Positions 2,472-34,590 of a stretch of DNA of 38,524 nt are shown here, piece after piece. Source of the DNA: Haloparvum sedimenti (GTDB lineage: Archaea > Halobacteriota > Halobacteria > Halobacteriales > Haloferacaceae). The notes under the pieces were generated by a model, which saw only the letters and a program-made list of their open reading frames with translations, was not told the origin of the DNA and searched no databases. The stretch spans positions 15,866-54,389 of the forward strand of contig NZ_LKIR01000116.1 in NCBI RefSeq assembly GCF_001462205.1. Direction: 5' to 3'. Each line of letters begins with the position of its first letter. Positions within the stretch are counted from its first letter, which is position 1. The position numbers and the translations under genes were made by a program.

Positions 2472-2524
2472 CGCGTCGATGGTGGCGTGAAGCGGGCAAA
2501 AAGGCGTCGTCGCTCGCTCGCGGC

Positions 2525-3499
2525 TCAGTCGTCGGACGGCGCGGGTGGGGACTGCAGGGGTTCGCCGTCGACCGGCGAGTCCGGGTTCGCCTCACGAGCC
2601 GAGGTCGGGAGCCCGAGCTGTGCGTCCACGTCGGCGTCCTCGCGCAGGCGGACGCGGCCCTTGTGGACCGAGACGGCGTCCGCGAGGTGGAGCCGGACCG
2701 CCTCCAGCAGCGCCTCCGCCTCGAGCGGCTGGCCGCGGGCCTTGATGTCGGCGACGCTCGCGCCGTCGGGCACGTCGAACGCGCGCTGGGTCACGACCGG
2801 GCCCTGGTCGAGATCCGTCGTCACGTAGTGAGCGGTGACGCCCGCGACCCGGACGCCGGCCTCCTTCGCCTGCCGGTACGCCTGCGCGCCGGGAAACGCC
2901 GGCAGCAGCGACGGGTGAATGTTGAGGATCCGCCCCTCGTACCGGAAGACCACGTTCGGGCCGAGGATGCGCATGTAGCGCGCCAACACCACCAGATCGA
3001 CATCGTACTCGGCCAGCAGGTCGAGGATGCGGTCCTCGTCCGGCGAGCCGTTGCCGTCGCCCACGTCGTAGAAGGGCTTGTCGTAGCGCTCCGCGAGGTC
3101 GCGGAGGTCGCCGCGGTTGCCGATGACGACCGGGATTTCGGCCTCGCCGTCCTCGGCGAGCTCGCCGTTCCGCTCGGCCTCCAGCAGCGTCTCGGGCGCG
3201 TGGCTCTCCTTCGTGACGAGCAGCGCGATCCGCCGGGACTCGCGGTCGTTCGGGAACCGCACCTGGATGTCCACGTCGAGTTCGCGGCCCAGGTCCGCGA
3301 GCGCGCGGCGGAGCTCCTCGCGGGAGGTGTCCATCTCCGCGGCGTCGACGCGCATCGTCATCCGGAACAGCCCGTCCCGGACCGCCTGGTCGAGGTCCTC
3401 GATGTTGATCGACCGCTCGAACAGCAGGGTCGTGACCCGCGCGATGAGTCCCGTCTTGTCTCCTCCGACCACGGTGATCTCGGTCAGTTCGCGGGTCAT
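2525..3499 (-). CDS. purU: Formyltetrahydrofolate deformylase
   Basis: This 324-residue protein has an N-terminal ACT domain (about 6-80, EITVVGGDKTGLIARVTTLL) and a C-terminal formyltransferase-fold domain (about 90-290). The catalytic triad of this fold is seen as N193 and H195 (ILNIHPSLLP) and D231 (DLDQGPVV). The ACT plus formyltransferase arrangement identifies PurU, which hydrolyses 10-formyl-THF to THF and formate, and not PurN, which lacks ACT. The acidic, Pro-rich tail after about residue 295 is haloarchaeal. A clear Shine-Dalgarno GGAGGTG (3505-3511) sits 5 nt before the ATG, so this gene is probably leadered. It is divergent from purS-purQ, which fits a purine/one-carbon role. Confidence 0.9.
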   Translation of the reverse strand: MTRELTEITVVGGDKTGLIARVTTLLFERSINIEDLDQAVRDGLFRMTMRVDAAEMDTSREELRRALADLGRELDVDIQVRFPNDRESRRIALLVTKESHAPETLLEAERNGELAEDGEAEIPVVIGNRGDLRDLAERYDKPFYDVGDGNGSPDEDRILDLLAEYDVDLVVLARYMRILGPNVVFRYEGRILNIHPSLLPAFPGAQAYRQAKEAGVRVAGVTAHYVTTDLDQGPVVTQRAFDVPDGASVADIKARGQPLEAEALLEAVRLHLADAVSVHKGRVRLREDADVDAQLGLPTSAREANPDSPVDGEPLQSPPAPSDD

Positions 3500-3504
3500 G
3501 CGAC

Positions 3505-3511
3505 CACCTCC
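3505..3511 (-). promoter_or_regulatory. Shine-Dalgarno site of purU
   Basis: Minus-strand GGAGGTG lies 5 nt before the purU ATG. A TATA-like GCTAAACC (minus strand, about 3553-3560) lies some 55 nt upstream of the ATG, which would give a leader of roughly 25-30 nt. Confidence 0.6.
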
Positions 3512-3665
3512 GTCGGTTCGAGCGGAACCATGGACCTACCGAGGCACCGGACGGTTTAGCCCCTTTCGCTCCGCGCCAGGTCTGCCACGGCATCCCATCG
3601 GCCGGTGCGCCGGACCTCGACCGCCCGCGTCCCGACGCAGATACACAGGGACGTGCATATCGGAG

Positions 3666-3687
3666 CGTTTCCAAAACGGTTTTTGCA
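3666..3687 (+). promoter_or_regulatory. purS promoter region with a small palindrome
   Basis: TTTTGCA at about 3681-3687 lies 23-29 nt before the purS ATG at 3710, as expected for a leaderless TATA element. Just upstream is the inverted repeat CGTTT-CCA-AAACG (3666-3678), placed where an operator overlapping the BRE would be. Binding by any protein is an inference. Confidence 0.4.
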
Positions 3688-3709
3688 CACGACCCCGCAC
3701 TACACACTG

Positions 3710-3961
3710 ATGACCGACTACACCGCGACCGTCACCGTCCGGCTGAAGCGGGGCGTCCTCGACCCGGAGGCCGAGACGACGAAGGACGCGCTGGAGCGGC
3801 TCGGCTTCGAGCTGTCGGGGCTCCGGTCGGCCGACCGCTTCGAGATCGACCTGTCGGCCGACGACGCGGACGCCGCGGCCGCGCGCGCCGACGAGATGGC
3901 CGAGCGCCTGCTGGCGAACCCGACCATTCACGACTACGAGGTCGCGGTCGAGGAACGATGA
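3710..3961 (+). CDS. purS: Phosphoribosylformylglycinamidine synthase subunit PurS
   Basis: This 83-residue protein begins MTDYTATVTVRLKRGVLDPE and matches the small PurS subunit in size and sequence (TTKDALERLGF, then the DRFEIDL strand). PurS bridges PurL and PurQ in the complex that converts FGAR to FGAM using ammonia from glutamine. The ATG at 3710 is used because PurS starts directly with the first beta-strand; the frame is open further upstream without homology. purQ follows after 61 bp. The last bases, GATGA, overlap an ATG that opens a 22-codon mini-ORF (see that entry). purL is not in the window. Confidence 0.93.
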   Translation: MTDYTATVTVRLKRGVLDPEAETTKDALERLGFELSGLRSADRFEIDLSADDADAAAARADEMAERLLANPTIHDYEVAVEER

Positions 3962-4026
3962 CGGTCTCGGTCGTCGCGACGATCGAAACCGTCACTGACG
4001 CCGCCCACGCGGGGTGTTCGGCGTGA
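3958..4026 (+). other. Mini-ORF between purS and purQ, a copy of the purQ start
   Basis: An ATG at 3958 overlaps the purS stop (ATGA) and opens a 22-codon frame whose first six residues, MTVSVV, are identical to those of PurQ. It ends at a TGA (4024-4026) that overlaps the purQ GTG (4023-4025) as GTGA. The 18 bases at 3958-3975 match 4023-4040 at 16 positions. The offset is 65 bp, so the upstream copy is out of frame with purQ. It looks like a small duplication of the purQ start that now forms a possible translational-coupling leader. No independent protein function is likely. Confidence 0.55.
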
Positions 4027-4700
4027 CGGTTTCGGTCGTCCAGTTCGGCGGCTCCAACTGCGACCGCGACGCCGTCCGCGCGCTGGGCCACCTCGGCGTC
4101 GACGCGGAGCGCGTCTGGCACGAGGACGGCCTGCCGGACGACACCGAGGGGATCGTCCTCCCCGGCGGCTTCTCCTACGGCGACTACCTCCGCGCCGGCG
4201 CGATGGCCGCGCGGGCGCCGATCATGGAGGAAGTCCGCGACGCGGCCGCCGATGGCGTCCCGGTCCTCGGGGTCTGCAACGGCGCCCAGATCGGCTCCGA
4301 AGCCGGACTGACGCCGGGCGCGTTCACCACCAACGCCTCCGCGCGCTTCCAGTGCGAGCCGGTCCACCTCCGCGTCGAGCGCACGGACACGCCGTGGACC
4401 GCGGCCTACGACGAGGGCGACGTCATCGAGGTCCCCATCGCCCACGGCGAGGGCCGCTTCGAGATCGGCGACGACGCCTACGACGACCTCGTCGCCGACG
4501 ACCGCGTCCTCTTCCGCTACTGCGACGCGGACGGGAACGTCACCGACGACGCGAACCCCAACGGCTCGACCGGCAACGTCGCCGGCGTCCTCGGCGAGCG
4601 CGAGACGGTCGCGGTGCTGATGCCGCACCCCGAGCGCGCGACGCTGCCCGACGTGGCGACGAGCACCGACGGGGCGGGCATTCTCGAAGCGTTCGCGTGA
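4023..4700 (+). CDS. purQ: Phosphoribosylformylglycinamidine synthase subunit PurQ (glutaminase)
   Basis: This 225-residue class I glutamine amidotransferase supplies ammonia to PurL for FGAM formation. It begins MTVSVVQFGGSNCDRD, which is characteristic of PurQ, has the oxyanion region VLPGGFSYGDYLRAGA (45-60), the nucleophile C85 (VLGVCNGAQI), and the catalytic pair H202/E204 (MPHPER). The GTG at 4023 is preferred over the in-frame GTG at 4014 because it gives the family N-terminus and overlaps the stop of the preceding mini-ORF as GTGA. It forms an operon with purS. Confidence 0.93.
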   Translation: MTVSVVQFGGSNCDRDAVRALGHLGVDAERVWHEDGLPDDTEGIVLPGGFSYGDYLRAGAMAARAPIMEEVRDAAADGVPVLGVCNGAQIGSEAGLTPGAFTTNASARFQCEPVHLRVERTDTPWTAAYDEGDVIEVPIAHGEGRFEIGDDAYDDLVADDRVLFRYCDADGNVTDDANPNGSTGNVAGVLGERETVAVLMPHPERATLPDVATSTDGAGILEAFA

Positions 4701-6620: not shown

Positions 6621-7115
6621 ATGCAAGCGCGTGACCTGATGACGACCGACGTGCAGACGGTGGCCTCGGACGACGACGTGGCCGACGTGCTCAAGCGGTT
6701 CGCCCGCGTCGAGTTCTCCGGGTTTCCGGTCGTCGACGAGGAGCGATTCGTCCTCGGCGTCGTCACGGAGTCCGACCTCGTGGACCTGTTCGAACCGGAG
6801 GACAAGACGCTCTGGATCCCCGTTGGGCTGCCGCCGTTCGTCGACACGCTCACCTATCAGGTCGACCCGCCGTGGGAGGACTTGGACCTCGGCCTCGACT
6901 TCGTTCGGAACACCGGCCGCGAGATATCGGAGGTGATGACGACCGAGGTGATAACGGTCGAACCCGACGCCGACGTGGACGAAATCCTCGACCTGCTGTC
7001 CGGCGACGACCCGAACATCAACCGCCTCCCGGTGGTCGACGACGAGGGACGACTCATCGGGATCGTCGCCAGACAGGACGTGATCCGGGCGTTCCGGGAC
7101 GAGCGGCAGGCCTAA
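6621..7115 (+). CDS. Tandem CBS-domain protein
   Basis: This 164-residue protein consists of two CBS domains. The first (about 1-60) contains DLMTTDVQTVASDDDVADVL and FPVVDEERFVLGVVTESDLV. The second (about 100-162) contains EVMTTEVITVEPDADVDEIL and LPVVDDEGRLIGIVARQDVI. A linker with LPPFVDTLTYQVDPPWEDL separates them. Paired CBS domains usually bind adenine nucleotides or S-adenosylmethionine and regulate a partner. No catalytic domain is present and the partner is not evident here. It lies 58 bp after ilvD on the same strand, which could allow cotranscription, though a separate promoter is possible. Confidence 0.9.
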   Translation: MQARDLMTTDVQTVASDDDVADVLKRFARVEFSGFPVVDEERFVLGVVTESDLVDLFEPEDKTLWIPVGLPPFVDTLTYQVDPPWEDLDLGLDFVRNTGREISEVMTTEVITVEPDADVDEILDLLSGDDPNINRLPVVDDEGRLIGIVARQDVIRAFRDERQA

Positions 7116-7221
7116 ACGACGGAACGCGGCTCGGGGACGGTTCGTGACCGCACCGACCGCGGCCCGCGGCAACGCCGTCCCGCTTCGAAACCGTAAGGGC
7201 GTCCGCGCGTGGACGGGCACT

Positions 7222-8145
7222 GTGAGCCGACACCGAAACCTCGCGCTGTTCCTGGTCCTCGCGGCGGTGTGGGGATCGGCGTTCATGGCGATCAAGGCGG
7301 GACTGGAGTTCTTCCCGCCGGTGCTGTTCGCGGCGATCCGCTACGACGTGGCCGGCGTCATCATGCTCGCGTACGCCGCGGTCGTCGTCGACGACCCGAT
7401 CCCCCGAACCCGGGGCGAGTGGACCCTCGTCGCGCTCGGCGCGACGCTGCTCATCGCCGCCTACCACGCCTTCCTGTTCGTCGGCGAGACCGACCCCAAC
7501 GTGACAAGCGCGGTCGCGGCCGTCCTCGTGAGCCTCTCGCCCGTCCTGACGACCGTCTTCGCGCGGGCGTTCCTCCCGAGCGAGCGCCTCACGCTGATCG
7601 GCACCGTCGGCCTCCTGATCGGACTGGGGGGCGTCGTCGTCCTCTCCCAGCCGGATCCCGGAAATCTGCTGGGACAGGGAACCGGCGCGAAGTTGCTGGT
7701 GTTCCTCGCGGCCGCGTCGTTCGCGCTCGGCTCGGTACTGACCGGCACCGTCGACGCCGACCTCCCCATCGAGACGATGGAGGCGTGGTCGATGATCCTT
7801 GGCGCGGCCCTGATGCATCTGCTTGCGGTCGGGCTCGGCGAGTCCGTCGCCGACATCGTCTGGACGTGGGAGGCGGTCGCCTCGCTCGCGTACCTCTCGA
7901 TCGCCGCCAGCGCGCTCGGCTTCCTGATCTACTTCGACCTGCTCGACCGCCTCGGCCCGATCGAGATCAACCTCGTCTCCTACGTCGCGCCCGTCTTCGC
8001 GGCCCTCTCGGGCTGGCTGTTCCTCGGCGAAGTGATCGCGGTGCCGACCGTCGTCGGCTTCGTCCTCATCTTCGGCGGCTTCCTGCTGGTCAAGCGAGAG
8101 GCGATCCGGCAGGAGTGGAGCCGGTACCTGGCGTCGCGGTCGTAG
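7222..8145 (+). CDS. EamA/DMT-family membrane transporter
   Basis: This protein of about 307 residues has ten hydrophobic segments arranged as two EamA repeats. The first repeat has LVLAAVWGSAFMAIKAGLEF and FAAIRYDVAGVIMLAY. The second has LAYLSIAASALGFLIYFDLL and APVFAALSGWLFLGEVIAVP, followed by a short cytoplasmic Lys/Arg tail. Members of this drug/metabolite transporter superfamily move small metabolites across the membrane; the substrate cannot be told. I chose the GTG at 7222 (VSRHRNLALF), directly before the first helix. The frame is open to a GTG at 7144, but the 26 extra residues look like untranslated sequence. Confidence 0.9.
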   Translation: MSRHRNLALFLVLAAVWGSAFMAIKAGLEFFPPVLFAAIRYDVAGVIMLAYAAVVVDDPIPRTRGEWTLVALGATLLIAAYHAFLFVGETDPNVTSAVAAVLVSLSPVLTTVFARAFLPSERLTLIGTVGLLIGLGGVVVLSQPDPGNLLGQGTGAKLLVFLAAASFALGSVLTGTVDADLPIETMEAWSMILGAALMHLLAVGLGESVADIVWTWEAVASLAYLSIAASALGFLIYFDLLDRLGPIEINLVSYVAPVFAALSGWLFLGEVIAVPTVVGFVLIFGGFLLVKREAIRQEWSRYLASRS

Positions 8146-8150
8146 TCGGG

Positions 8151-8188
8151 CGGCGTTGCGGTCCTCGTCCGCCGGCGTTGCGGTCCTC
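8151..8188 (+). repeat. Direct repeat of 16 bp downstream of the EamA gene
   Basis: CGGCGTTGCGGTCCTC occurs at 8151-8166 and again, identically, at 8173-8188 (period 22 bp). It lies in the gap between the transporter stop and the GNAT promoter. No function is apparent. Confidence 0.6.
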
Positions 8189-8275
8189 AAACGAGGGCGT
8201 CGCGGCCGGCGGAACCGTGCGGGTTCTTCTCACCCCCGGAGTAGCCTTTATGTCTCGGAGCGTCACCCTCGGGGC

Positions 8276-8887
8276 ATGTTCCCCGAGACGTTCGAGACGG
8301 AGCGCCTCCGGTTCGAGCCGCGGTGGCCAGAGCGCGTCGACGTTCACGAGCTGTACGACATCTGTTCGAACGACCCCGGGATCGACGAGATCACGGAGTA
8401 CGTCTCGTGGAGCCCCCACGAGACCCCGAAGGAGACCGCGGAGTTCCTCGAACGCGGCCGGACGAAGTGGGACGACCGCGAGGCGGCCGGCTACGTGATC
8501 CGCCCGCGCGAGGGCGAGGACGGCGCCGGCGAGATCGCCGGCATGACCGGCATCGGCCTGAAGTGGGACCGGCGGACCGCCGTCCTCGGCCTCTGGCTCC
8601 GCAAGTGGTTCTGGGGTCGGGGCTACTCCGGCGAGCGAGCGGCCGCGCTCTGCGAGCTCGCGTTCGACCGCCTCGACCTGGAGATCGTCGTCGTCTCGCA
8701 CCATCCGAAGAACGAGCAGTCCGAGCGCGCCATCGGGAAGTACGTCGACCGGTTCGGCGGCCGCCGCGAGGGACGCCTCCGCAACACCCTCCTCGACCTG
8801 GATGGCGGCGTCGCCGACGAGGTGCGCTACTCGATCTCACAGGCGGAGTGGCGCGAGGCGACCGACGGCGGCACCGACATCCTGTAA
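8276..8887 (+). CDS. GNAT-family N-acetyltransferase (RimJ/RimL type)
   Basis: This 203-residue protein begins MFPETFETERLRFEPRW, the usual start of the RimJ/RimL branch of GNAT acetyltransferases (E-T-E-R-L-x-L/F). Central strands TGIGLKWDRRTAVLGLWL (91-108) are followed by the acetyl-CoA pyrophosphate-binding turn WGRGYSGERA (113-122). The acceptor, a protein N-terminus or a small amine, cannot be predicted. The ATG at 8276 is chosen because homology begins there; CCTTTATG at about 8246-8253 sits some 25 nt upstream as a leaderless TATA element. The gene ends in a small hairpin. Confidence 0.88.
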   Translation: MFPETFETERLRFEPRWPERVDVHELYDICSNDPGIDEITEYVSWSPHETPKETAEFLERGRTKWDDREAAGYVIRPREGEDGAGEIAGMTGIGLKWDRRTAVLGLWLRKWFWGRGYSGERAAALCELAFDRLDLEIVVVSHHPKNEQSERAIGKYVDRFGGRREGRLRNTLLDLDGGVADEVRYSISQAEWREATDGGTDIL

Positions 8888-26854: not shown

Positions 26855-27202
26855 TCACCGGAGCCCGCGCGCCAGCCCCCCGACGACCCCGAGGGCGACC
26901 GCTATCGCGACCGGGGCGGCCGCCAGCGGACCGGCGCCCAGCAGCGGAGCGAGGTCGCCGCTCCCCGACAGCGACAGCGCGAACGCCGCGAGGACGACGA
27001 GCGAGAACGCGGCGCCGTACGCCACGCCGCGCCGGAGGGTCGGCGCGAGCAGGCCCCACGCGCCAGCGCCGAGCAGGATCCCGAGTGGGTGCAGCGTCGC
27101 GAGCGCCACCGCGACCGCGCCCGTTCCCGCGAACGCGACGGCCCGGACGAGGGTGACCCGCGAGCGCCGGTCCGCGGCCGCCCCGGCGCGCCGATCACGC
27201 AT
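26855..27202 (-). CDS. Small hydrophobic membrane protein
   Basis: This 115-residue protein has a basic N-terminus (MRDRRAGAAADRRSR) followed by three or four hydrophobic segments (about 20-52, 60-80 and 88-112) rich in Ala, Gly, Val and Leu. I do not recognise a family. Its ATG at 27202 lies inside the last codons of the acylase gene, an 8-bp overlap, so the two are almost certainly cotranscribed and translationally coupled. A membrane partner or accessory role for the acylase is possible but unproven. Confidence 0.7.
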   Translation of the reverse strand: MRDRRAGAAADRRSRVTLVRAVAFAGTGAVAVALATLHPLGILLGAGAWGLLAPTLRRGVAYGAAFSLVVLAAFALSLSGSGDLAPLLGAGPLAAAPVAIAVALGVVGGLARGLR

Positions 27203-29678
27203 TGTCGGCCTCCGCGAACCGGAACTGCACCTCGCCCGTCGGCTCCAGCCGGAGGGGTTTGTACTCGCCGTCCGCCCAGCGCTTCAGCTGGCTCGCGTAG
27301 CCGTTCGAAAAGGGCCGACCGGAGTTGCCTCCGGGAAGGATCGCGCGCGCCTCGTCGGGCGACCAGAGCATGCGCCAGCTCGACCCGGCCGACGACTCGC
27401 GACGGTAGTTGAACAGCGTGGCCGGCGAGCCGTCCGTCGGGTACGCGGGGTAGTTCAGGAACGACTGCCCGAAGGGGTGCCGGATCGCGGCGGTGGAGTT
27501 CACGTCGCCGTATGTCGTCGCCTCGCCCGCCTCTCGCTCCGCCGTCACGCGATCGACGGCAACCGCGAGGCTCTCGCGCAGCAGGGCGTCCCGGGACCGC
27601 CCACCGAGCCAGTCCCCGTCCGGATCGAGGCCGACGAGGACCCAGTCGGTCGGCCAATCGCCCTCGTCGAGGCCCGCGGCCGCGAACCGGTCGGCGAAGA
27701 CGCGGTCTCGGTAGGCCGCGATCAGGCGGTCGAACAGCAGGGCCGCCTCCGAGTCGCGGGTCATTCGCCGGTCCCAGTCCTCGAGGGTCGCGGCCGCCTC
27801 GCGGAGGGCAGGGTCCGAGTCGCCGTCGGCCGCCGCGACGGCGTCCACCACGAGGGGGACCAGCCGACCCGCGCGACCGTCGCGGACGTCGCGCTGGACG
27901 CTCGCCATGTCGCCGAGCGTGAGGGGTGTCTCCGCCGCGACCGCCGCGTCCAGCCGGTCGTAAACGCGGATCCCGCGCCACGGCGTCGAGTACCCCTCCG
28001 CGAGGTAGTAGGGGTAGGCGTCGTCGTCGACGATCCGCTGGTTGGCGGTCGCCAGCAGGTCGGGGTCCTCGCGGGCCGGCATCTCCTCGAAGGGGATGGC
28101 TCCGGACCAGTCGGGGTCCGGGTCGTAGGGCTCGTAGCCGGGCCACTCGCCCTCCCGCGCGGATCCGTCGTGGACGCGGTCGCCGCGGACCGGCTCGCCG
28201 CCGGTCTCTCGGATCGGAACGCGGCCGGTGACGCGAAACAGGGTGCCGCCGTCGGCGTCGGCCGCGACCAGGCACTGGCTGAACGAGTCGAACGAGCGCG
28301 ACGCCGCGTCGATCTCGGCGACCGTCTCCGCGCGCGGGAACTCCCTGATCGCGGTCGTGACCCCCGAGCCGACCAGGCCGGTCCACGCGATACCCACTTC
28401 TCGGCCCTCCCGGTCGAGGACGGGACCGTGGACGGATTTTCTGACCGCGACCGTCCGGTCCGCTGCGCCCGCGACCGGGATCGTCGCGGTCTCCGTCTCG
28501 AACGCGCGCCACTCGTCGCCGCATCTGTACTCCGCGGGGACCGTGTCCGAGTCGGTCATGTCGTCCTCGACCGCCACCTCCCCGCGCGTCTCGTAGGTGT
28601 AGCAGTCGAGCTGGTCACTGCCCGGGTTGGTGAACCCCCACGCGCAGCGGTCGCTGGCACCGATGACGACGAAGGGGACGCCCGGGAACGTGACGCCGCG
28701 CACGTCCGACTCCGGCGTGGTGACGTGCTGTTCGTACCACACCGGCGGCGCCTGTAGACTCAGGTGGGGATCGTTGGCGAGCAGCGGATCTCCGGAGGCG
28801 GTGTGGGCCCCGGAGACGACCCACGAGTTCGATCCGAACCCTGGCGGCGACTCGAACCCCGAGAGCCACGAAGCGAGGTCCGGGTCCACGTCGGCCGCGG
28901 GCGGCGCGTCGGGTCGCGTCTCGTCTCGCAGTCCGACGCGCCGAGACTCGTCCCCCTCGGGTTCAGCGTCCCGGAGGATCGGCGAGTCGTGGTCGTAGCG
29001 TTGCGGGAACAGTTCAGCGACCGCCGCCTCGCCGAGGGCGTCGCGGAGCGCGGCCCGGCGGAGGCTTCGGAAGCTCCCGGTCAGCGCCCACGCGATCTGT
29101 TTCTCCATCAGCATCGTGTCGACGGGAGTCCACGGCACGGGCTCGTAGTCGAGCAGCCGGAACTCGACGGGGAGGTCTCCCTCCTTCATGCGGGCGTTGA
29201 CCCCGTCAGCGTAGGCGCCGACGGCGTCGCCGGCGGGCGTGTCGCGGATCCGATCCCACGACGCCTCGGCCGCGCGGACGAAGTCCATGCGGACGTGGAA
29301 CTCGTCGGAGCCGAGCGTCGCGGGGCCCACGACCTCCGAGAGGCGACCGCGCATCACGCGCCGCTGGAGGTCGAGCTGGAACAGCCGGTGTGTCGCCTGC
29401 GCGTAGCCGGTGGCGTACGCCGCCGCGAGCTCGTCGTCGGCCGCGACGTGGGGGACTGCTTCCTCGTCGATCCGGACGGTCGCCGGGCCGTGCGGGCTTG
29501 CGACGGTTCCGTCGGCCGGCGGATCGCCCCACGCGGAGCCCGAGAGCGGAGCGAACGCGCGCAGGTAGCCCGCCACGGGCGAGAGGGTCCCGGCGGCGGC
29601 GGTCCCGCCGATGATCGCGCCGATCAGACCGCGCCGCGTCGTGGAGGGTCCGTCTCCTAGATCGGTCACAACTCTCAC
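27195..29678 (-). CDS. Penicillin acylase-family amidase, Tat-exported
   Basis: This 827-residue Ntn-hydrolase is related to penicillin G acylase and acyl-homoserine-lactone acylases, which cut amide bonds after self-processing. The N-terminus has a twin-arginine motif (TTRRGLIG, R15-R16) and a hydrophobic stretch, so Tat export is likely. The alpha-chain region includes AVPHVAADDELAAAYATGYAQ and QLDLQRRVMRGRLSEVVG. The self-cleavage site and nucleophile are seen at G282-S283-N284 (FGSNSWVVSG), followed by LLANDPHLSLQAPPVWYE. Starts at GTG 29678 or 29669 are both possible. Substrate is unknown; quorum-signal or peptide amides are guesses. It lies between lrp and carA. Confidence 0.92.
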   Translation of the reverse strand: MRVVTDLGDGPSTTRRGLIGAIIGGTAAAGTLSPVAGYLRAFAPLSGSAWGDPPADGTVASPHGPATVRIDEEAVPHVAADDELAAAYATGYAQATHRLFQLDLQRRVMRGRLSEVVGPATLGSDEFHVRMDFVRAAEASWDRIRDTPAGDAVGAYADGVNARMKEGDLPVEFRLLDYEPVPWTPVDTMLMEKQIAWALTGSFRSLRRAALRDALGEAAVAELFPQRYDHDSPILRDAEPEGDESRRVGLRDETRPDAPPAADVDPDLASWLSGFESPPGFGSNSWVVSGAHTASGDPLLANDPHLSLQAPPVWYEQHVTTPESDVRGVTFPGVPFVVIGASDRCAWGFTNPGSDQLDCYTYETRGEVAVEDDMTDSDTVPAEYRCGDEWRAFETETATIPVAGAADRTVAVRKSVHGPVLDREGREVGIAWTGLVGSGVTTAIREFPRAETVAEIDAASRSFDSFSQCLVAADADGGTLFRVTGRVPIRETGGEPVRGDRVHDGSAREGEWPGYEPYDPDPDWSGAIPFEEMPAREDPDLLATANQRIVDDDAYPYYLAEGYSTPWRGIRVYDRLDAAVAAETPLTLGDMASVQRDVRDGRAGRLVPLVVDAVAAADGDSDPALREAAATLEDWDRRMTRDSEAALLFDRLIAAYRDRVFADRFAAAGLDEGDWPTDWVLVGLDPDGDWLGGRSRDALLRESLAVAVDRVTAEREAGEATTYGDVNSTAAIRHPFGQSFLNYPAYPTDGSPATLFNYRRESSAGSSWRMLWSPDEARAILPGGNSGRPFSNGYASQLKRWADGEYKPLRLEPTGEVQFRFAEADNA

Positions 29679-32760: not shown

Positions 32761-32768
32761 ATATATAA
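32761..32768 (-). promoter_or_regulatory. TATA box of the PHP gene
   Basis: Minus-strand TTATATAT lies 21 nt before the GTG at 32739. It supports that GTG as a leaderless start. Confidence 0.6.
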
Positions 32769-32856
32769 GGTCGTCCGCCGGTCACCGATTCATAATCCGT
32801 CCTACAAGAACGCGCTTCAGGGAACGGTTATGTCCCGGGTCGTGGTACTAATTACC

Positions 32857-34590
32857 ATGGGTGTTCCCGAGACGCACGAGGCGGCGGTCGAACTGGACGA
32901 ACTGCGGGAGTCGGGCCGCGAACTGGTCGCGCTCGACGGCGTGCCGATCGCGGTGTTCCACCACGAGGGCGAGGTCCGCGCGGTGAACAACCGGTGTCCG
33001 CACATGGGGTTCCCGCTCACCGAGGGGACCGTCGACGAGGGGATCCTCACCTGCGAGTGGCACCACGCGCGCTTCGAGCTCTCCTGCGGGAACACCTTCG
33101 ACCCGTGGGCCGACGACGTGGAGACGTACCCCACCCTGGTCGAGGACGGCACCGTTTACGTGAACCCGAACCCGGAGCGCGACCGTTCCCCGGCCGAACA
33201 CTGGCGGGAGCGGCTGGAGGACGGCCTCGAGCGAAACATCCGGCTGGTGATCGCGAAGTCCGCGGTCGGGCTGGCGGACGCCGGCGTGCCGGTGTCCGAG
33301 CAGTTGGAGGCGGGCGTCGCGTTCGGCACGCGGTACCGGCAGGGGGGCTGGTCGTCCGGGCTCACCATCCTCACGGCGCTGTCGAACGTCGCGGCGGACC
33401 TCGACCCGCAGGACCGCCAGCGCGCGATGTACCAGGGGCTGACCGAGGTGGCGAGCGACTGCGCCGACGAGCCGCCCAAGTTCGAGGAGGACGAGTTCGA
33501 CACCCGCGAGGTCCCCTACGACCGGCTGAAGGAGTGGTTCCGTGACTGCGTCGAGGTCCGCGACCCGGACGGCGCCGAGCGGTGTCTGCGCACCGCGGTC
33601 GCGTGCGGCCACGACGACGCCGAGCTCGCGGAGATCGTTGCCGCGGCCACGACCGACCACCGCTACCTCTCGACGGGCCACGCGTTCGACCACTTCAACA
33701 AGGCGACCGAGGCGCTCGACCGCGTCGGCTGGGACGAGGCGGACGCGGTGCTGTCGAGCCTCGTGGAGAACCTCACGAGCGCCGAGCGCAGCGAGGAGCT
33801 GGCCGAGTGGCGCCGCCCCGACGACCTCGCCGGCATGTGCGAGGACCTGTTCGACCGACTCGACGACCTCGTCGCGGCTGGGGAGGGCGAAGAATGGACC
33901 GAGCCGGACGACTTCACCGAGACGCTCCGTGGGTCGGATCCGGAACCGATCTTCGACGCGCTGGAGACCGCGATCCGGAACGGCGCGACCGTCGAGCAGC
34001 TCGCGGGCGCCGTGGCGTACGCGGCCGCGACGCGGGTCGCGCGGTTCGGGACGAGCAACGAGTTCGTCGACTGGAACACCGTCCACCACACGTTCACGTA
34101 CGCAAACGCCGTCCACCGGATGGCGGAGCGCGTGGACGCCCCCGAACTCTACCGCGGCGTCGTCGACGCGGCCGTGAACGTCTACCTCGACCGGTTCCTC
34201 AACACGCCGCCGGCGCCGTATCCGGACCCGGCGCCCGACGCCGACCCCGACGAGGCACTGGCCGACCTCCGGCTGTGCTTCGAGACGGAGGGCGAGGTCG
34301 ACGCGGCGGCGCGGGCGACCGCGCGCTACCTCGACGGGGGCGGCGACCCCGACCGTCTCAAGGCCGAACTCGGCAACGCGCTGCTGATCGAGGACACGAA
34401 CTTCCACACGTTTCAGGCGCTGGAGGCGGCGTTCTCACAGTATGACCGCCGCGAGGACCCAGCAGAGCGTCGCCTCCTCCTGGTCGCGCTCGCGCGCTAC
34501 ATGGCCGCCCACTACCCTACCCGCCGCGAGCGCGAGGGGACCTTCTCGATCGCCACCCGGCTCCACCGCGGCGAGGCAGTCCACGAGTAG
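32857..34590 (+). CDS. Rieske [2Fe-2S] protein with a long histidine-bearing helical domain
   Basis: This 577-residue protein has an N-terminal Rieske domain (about 20-105) with cluster ligands C47-x-H49 (NRCPHMGFP) and C66-x-x-H69 (LTCEWHHARF). The remaining 470 residues are predicted helical. They contain repeated-looking blocks with clustered histidines: H268, H275, H279 (TTDHRYLSTGHAFDHF); H410, H411, H420 (NTVHHTFTYANAVHR); and E512, D513, H517 (LIEDTNFHTFQ). Similar Rieske-plus-helical proteins occur in actinobacteria as far as I recall, without known function. The ATG at 32857 is favoured over 32830 because a TATA-like GGTTATG (32826-32832) overlaps the latter. Confidence 0.82.
   Translation: MGVPETHEAAVELDELRESGRELVALDGVPIAVFHHEGEVRAVNNRCPHMGFPLTEGTVDEGILTCEWHHARFELSCGNTFDPWADDVETYPTLVEDGTVYVNPNPERDRSPAEHWRERLEDGLERNIRLVIAKSAVGLADAGVPVSEQLEAGVAFGTRYRQGGWSSGLTILTALSNVAADLDPQDRQRAMYQGLTEVASDCADEPPKFEEDEFDTREVPYDRLKEWFRDCVEVRDPDGAERCLRTAVACGHDDAELAEIVAAATTDHRYLSTGHAFDHFNKATEALDRVGWDEADAVLSSLVENLTSAERSEELAEWRRPDDLAGMCEDLFDRLDDLVAAGEGEEWTEPDDFTETLRGSDPEPIFDALETAIRNGATVEQLAGAVAYAAATRVARFGTSNEFVDWNTVHHTFTYANAVHRMAERVDAPELYRGVVDAAVNVYLDRFLNTPPAPYPDPAPDADPDEALADLRLCFETEGEVDAAARATARYLDGGGDPDRLKAELGNALLIEDTNFHTFQALEAAFSQYDRREDPAERRLLLVALARYMAAHYPTRREREGTFSIATRLHRGEAVHE

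Follow-up and report, generated by a model that had tools for sequence, protein, structure and literature searches.

The window (that is, the whole 38,524-nucleotide stretch of Haloparvum sedimenti DNA analysed here) contains a gene encoding a 577-residue protein in which a short N-terminal Rieske [2Fe-2S] domain is fused to a large C-terminal domain (Table 1). An in-frame ATG at 32830 provides an alternative start, and a TATA-like stretch, atatataag, at 32761-32769 lies some 70-95 bases upstream of both possible starts, which is consistent with this gene having a separate archaeal promoter. Its neighbours are mostly housekeeping genes, and include those for the carbamoyl-phosphate synthase small chain (carA), an alpha/beta hydrolase, a PHP-domain protein, a HAD hydrolase, an amino-acid-kinase-family protein and lysyl-tRNA synthetase. 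Near carA, on the reverse strand (27195-29678), is a gene whose full-length product belongs to the penicillin amidase family (Pfam E = 5.8e-178).

Table 1. Coordinates of the features discussed (positions in the window, unless a locus identifier is given).
Feature	Position	Strand	Basis
Gene, 577-residue two-domain protein	32857..34590	+	ATG start, stop included; full-length homologues
Rieske [2Fe-2S] domain, residues 13-105	32893..33171	+	Pfam PF00355; Rieske ferredoxins as PDB matches
Rieske cluster ligands C47-x-H49 ... C66-x-x-H69	32995..33063	+	each in 58/58 distinct homologues
All-helical C-terminal domain, residues 109-577, predicted questin-oxidase fold	33181..34587	+	AlphaFold, VIA-align
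S167 to T170, place of first questin-oxidase His (N-H-x-P-M), no His	33355..33366	+	alignments
Repeat copy A, about residues 236-291, with H275	33562..33729	+	hhalign against copy B
H275, proposed metal ligand	33679..33681	+	58/58; first residue of predicted helix 275-290; superposes on H411
Repeat copy B, about residues 361-427, with H411	33937..34137	+	hhalign against copy A
H411, proposed metal ligand	34087..34089	+	58/58; aligns with a His that is invariant in bacterial questin oxidases
E512, invariant carboxylate near H517, possible ligand or second-shell residue	34390..34392	+	58/58
H517, proposed metal ligand	34405..34407	+	58/58; aligns with fourth invariant questin-oxidase His
Q520 (H517+3), at Lys (or Ser) place of questin oxidases	34414..34416	+	58/58 Gln
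Other Rieske fusions	L105:509-2596 and 2524-4377	-	Pfam-checked
Putative other Rieske fusion	L107:886-2898	-	haloarchaeal relative
Other Rieske fusions	L108:1887-3911 and 6744-8501	+	Pfam-checked

The Rieske domain is of the ferredoxin type: PF00355 covers residues 13-92 (E = 1.1e-15), related Rieske models extend over residues 10-103 or so, and the cluster motif C-x-H ... C-x-x-H is complete, as it is in 28/28 aligned homologues. Residues 4-108 superpose on Rieske ferredoxins such as BphA3, the naphthalene dioxygenase ferredoxin and CarAc; these, however, are stand-alone proteins that serve a separate oxygenase, whereas in the window protein the carrier is fused. An earlier interpretation of this locus (termed here the sequence-only reading) had noted that the Rieske part is a small share of the 577 residues, and this is borne out. 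Residues 109-577 (about 470 residues) have no significant Pfam, NCBIfam or PADLOC match, and a search of PDB sequences with a profile of the C-terminal domain returned chance matches only. A defence function was considered and set aside, since the PADLOC search gave no match.

Genome and plasmid searches indicate that the family is broad yet patchy beyond the haloarchaea and that its two domains travel together. The search covered 60 genomes, namely the organism's own and 59 others from its family or order. Some match is present in 44 of them; it extends into the C-terminal domain in 33 and is Rieske-only or fragmentary in the remaining 11. Outside the haloarchaea, full-length relatives occur in Marininema and Paludifilum (L037 and L038) and in a Desulfurococcales metagenome-assembled genome (L040). 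All 24 matching plasmid records span the whole C-terminal domain; their hosts are haloarchaea, cyanobacteria, Priestia, Metabacillus, Paraburkholderia, Microvirga and Sinorhizobium, and, where these records are annotated, family members are named only as Rieske proteins, which leaves about 470 of 577 residues unannotated. A C-terminal profile found two full-length matches and one partial match among 299 genomes of one phylum (that of genome G060) and, among 300 genomes of another (that of G061), the starting genome only. Removing duplicates from the 87 loci with the protein left 58 distinct homologues--from haloarchaea, the Desulfurococcales genome, Bacillota, cyanobacteria and proteobacteria--all of which have both domains. 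One further locus (L109:846-2381, reverse strand, genome G030) holds a decayed gene of this type, with a damaged cluster motif and a degenerate C-terminal part. Haloarchaeal relatives also include other Rieske fusions (Table 1), in which a Rieske domain is joined to a thiamine-diphosphate enzyme (TPP_enzyme N, M and C); the gene for this fusion lies near one for a protein combining a Rieske domain with a glutamate-synthase-type (FMN) domain.

The sequence-only reading had suggested surveying the gene neighbourhoods of homologues; among 50 loci compared (49 of them with the gene), this survey found neither a conserved gene partner nor a reductase gene. That carA and a gene for an AsnC-type regulator are neighbours in haloarchaea seems to reflect local synteny. 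Alpha/beta hydrolase genes occur near the gene in the window and, of eight non-haloarchaeal loci with inspected gene tables, at five (L041, L043, L045, L102 and L103, but not L042, L044 or L046); as a partner this was rejected, the copies being mostly unrelated to each other (only those of L045 and L103 are close, at 90%). SDR genes lie near several loci, which may be no more than their background frequency.

For the full-length protein AlphaFold yields a model with mean pLDDT 91.4 and pTM 0.89, and for the C-terminal domain alone an all-helical model with mean pLDDT 92.0 and pTM 0.91. Because the fold search with the whole model was dominated by Rieske entries (on which residues 4-108 superpose at Z of about 16-17), the C-terminal domain was run by itself. 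VIA-align then placed questin-oxidase or hydroquinone-dioxygenase entries at all of ranks 1-6, with Z = 14.0-17.6 over 323-331 residues: 7y3x (BTG13; Z 17.6, rmsd 4.3, 326 aligned), 7y3w (BTG13; 17.2, 4.5, 331), 7y3y (BTG13; 16.3, 4.2, 324), 8yxs (AflY, titled a non-heme iron dioxygenase; 16.1, 4.5, 331), 8z4q (hydroquinone dioxygenase PaD; 14.2, 4.4, 323) and 8z4r (PaD; 14.0, 4.7, 331). Since mostly helical models can reach a best Z of about 14 through a common arrangement, the weight of this match lies in its coverage and in the gap below the sixth entry, the seventh having Z = 9.1 over only 94 residues. Foldseek likewise ranks 8yxs first for the domain alone, at a modest E of 4.3e-3 (probability 1.00; next E = 0.39). 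Two other resemblances were discarded as reflecting only the common helical-hairpin arrangement, namely AAA C-terminal collar domains (Z of about 8-9 over 85-107 residues) and a weak Pfam MgsA_C match. The predicted C-terminal fold thus specifically matches the non-heme-iron questin-oxidase family, at a sequence identity to the matched structures of 7-9%. The sequence-only reading had proposed an oxygenase-like second domain and had looked to structure prediction for a convergence of its histidines; the first proposal gains support from this fold match, and the prediction supplies a high-confidence, oxygenase-type fold (mean pLDDT 91-92, questin-oxidase family at ranks 1-6), within which the histidines considered below may converge.

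Two similar helical blocks had been noticed within the domain, and these are indeed an internal repeat. When sub-profiles of a 28-sequence alignment were compared using hhalign, with 60 column shuffles and a reversed profile as controls, residues 217-323 matched residues 354-462 with a score of 39.0 (probability 90%, P = 1.7e-6); none of the 60 shuffles reached this score (maximum 18.0) and the reversed control scored 12.6. The resulting alignment of copies A and B superposes H275 on H411. When single sequences are aligned, the repeat shows up only weakly (z = 2.8 for the window protein), so that it could not have been proved by the sequence-only reading. Besides copies A and B, only the first and third repeats, more weakly, beat both controls (score 26.5, 0/60 shuffles), W165 falling on W406 and T170 at the place of H411. 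The fourth repeat is not separable from controls: its match to the second is equalled in 11/60 shuffles, and its match to the third, which no shuffle of 60 equals, is outscored by the reversed control.

Conservation among the 58 homologues narrows the set of candidate ligands. Ten residues of the C-terminal domain are present in all 58: H275, H411, H517, E512, D278, N281, E313, E314, D405 and Q520; H552 and D513 are each present in 56. Of the residues nominated by the sequence-only reading, therefore, H275, H411, H517 and E512 stand and D513 nearly so, whereas H268 (53/58, with arginine in four homologues and serine in one), H410 (49/58), H420 (45/58) and H279 (6/58) are not invariant. The histidine 'clusters' were consequently wrong in detail, in that each of the two blocks reduces to a single invariant histidine.

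Members of the questin oxidase family (Pfam PF14027, formerly DUF4243) include BTG13, AflY, PaD and GedK. Eleven bacterial members share four invariant histidines (H33, H126, H241 and H313 of L057), the first of which sits in an N-H-x-P-M motif and the third of which is followed, at +3, by T244. Counted from the alignment, the second to fourth of these are H158, H296 and H374 in BTG13, with T299 and K377 at +3 from the latter two (the position of T299 being confirmed by a T299V structure entry); the first is presumably H58, the mutated residue in the title of 7y3x. The metal ligands in BTG13 we take to be the four histidines and a carboxylated lysine three residues after the last of them, a place occupied by serine in four rhizobial members of the eleven-sequence alignment. 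The window family resembles these proteins in its predicted fold over about 330 residues, in its succession of helical hairpins, three of which each carry an invariant histidine, and in an H-x-x-T-x-x-x-A pattern around one of these (H-x-x-T/S-x-x-x-A at H411). It differs in carrying its own Rieske domain, in lacking the first of the four histidines, and in having glutamine in 58/58 homologues at the lysine or serine place.

In a joint MAFFT alignment the third and fourth questin-oxidase histidines fall on H411 and H517, and Q520 falls on the lysine place, while S166/S167 lie near the first N-H; S167 is variable and T170 is present in 56/58 homologues. The second histidine falls on H268 rather than H275 in this alignment; nevertheless, H275 is preferred as its probable counterpart, because it is invariant, starts the second helix of its hairpin and superposes on H411. 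The loss of the first histidine together with the invariant glutamine suggests that the site would be distinct from that of BTG13 and would have more open coordination positions.

Profile methods establish no sequence-level link between the window family and the questin oxidases. The PF14027 profile does not match the window protein at E up to 10, and whole-domain comparison by hhalign gives a probability of 0.5%. In block-by-block comparisons, the R4-Q4 score is reached in 5/40 shuffles and the R1-Q1 score in 24/40, and in a neighbour-only window test the matching histidine columns rank 77 (H275), 9 (H411) and 42 (H517) of 467. A 455-residue Rieske-less protein from a Bacillota genome (L053:1492-2859, reverse strand, genome G220) shows weak similarity to the final part of the C-terminal domain (E = 1.9e-5), has an H-x-V-T-G stretch like that of questin oxidases and has three SDR-like matches nearby. 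It was rejected as a bridge between the families: it has no relatives in plasmids or viral contigs, and a search of 299 genomes returned only itself.

Oxygenation that depends on a Rieske cluster normally goes with a single catalytic domain and a single set of metal ligands. The window protein shares with the classic Rieske non-heme iron oxygenases (the class of naphthalene dioxygenase, CntA and KshA) a larger chain that begins with a Rieske domain and a proposed electron flow from [2Fe-2S] cluster to mononuclear centre, and might on that account be taken for an alpha subunit with a diverged catalytic domain. This is very improbable. The catalytic motif of that class, D-X2-H-X3,4-H-Xn-D (PMC5209329), is missing: the window protein does not contain D-X2-H-X3,4-H, which occurs in only 3/28 homologues, in each case at the H275 site. 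Moreover, no Pfam family, a Rieske-oxygenase catalytic domain included, covers residues 109-577, the C-terminal fold is predicted to be all-helical, and the proposed ligands are three histidines instead of two histidines and a carboxylate. The expectation of the sequence-only reading that this enzyme would be unlike the classic Rieske oxygenases is accordingly supported. In CntA, as described in PMC7948474, electrons pass between the subunits of a trimer.

The interpretation favoured here, with a probability of about 60%, is that the protein is a self-contained, oxygenase-like enzyme whose Rieske cluster feeds a probably iron centre held by H275, H411 and H517. The ferredoxin-type cluster would take electrons from a general cellular reductase, which is assumed because no reductase gene travels with the family, and, being tethered, would pass them directly to the mononuclear centre or to a bound quinone. 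This centre would draw one histidine from each of three consecutive helical hairpins, with E512 and Q520 near by in sequence. Either O2 would be activated there, or a quinone-type substrate would be reduced and then attacked by O2; the outcome may be hydroxylation or cleavage of a hydrophobic aromatic or quinol-like ring. The geodin pathway of fungi, as outlined in PMC9890505, uses an NADPH reductase (GedF) to form the hydroquinone and a second enzyme, the dioxygenase GedK, to cleave questin; a tethered electron carrier is therefore a plausible substitute for such a two-enzyme arrangement.

The same review describes GedK as an unusual cofactor-free dioxygenase, and thus iron in the questin-oxidase family is not undisputed. 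The C-terminal domain might accordingly be metal-free, its histidines having structural or acid-base roles in a cofactor-free dioxygenase or a Rieske-fed quinone reductase. Yet an invariant histidine on each of three successive hairpins, with two of the three lying in repeat copies that superpose, is a usual pattern for a metal site, and 8yxs is titled a non-heme iron dioxygenase; this makes a metal-free domain quite unlikely. It is unlikely, too, that the domain binds metal at the three histidines without being an oxygenase--for example, acting as a redox sensor, dealing with peroxide or NO, or working as a metal enzyme without a redox role. Replacement of the first histidine and the lysine of the questin site would fit such a role, as would genes that stand alone without common catabolic partners, but the nearest folds are those of oxygen-using, ring-cleaving enzymes, and the tethered Rieske domain in 58/58 aligned homologues points to electron delivery. 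The protein is best described as one that would act as questin-type oxygenases do, with its own Rieske donor built in, and that by strict test belongs neither to the questin oxidases nor to the classic Rieske oxygenases.

In the openly licensed PubMed Central text searched, no paper names both Rieske and questin oxidase, or both Rieske and DUF4243. The chances are about even that the family constitutes a second, independently evolved class of Rieske oxygenase, present in archaea and bacteria, in which a single chain combines a Rieske domain with a three-histidine iron site on a questin-oxidase fold--as against the two-histidine, one-carboxylate site in the usual catalytic domain of the classic enzymes--and so merges the reductase and dioxygenase of the fungal two-enzyme system. 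If so, joining this electron carrier to another fold and a three-histidine site would be a second solution to Rieske-dependent oxygenation. It would also make available for assay an oxygenase encoded by one gene, and offer a way to test how electrons reach questin-type dioxygenases.
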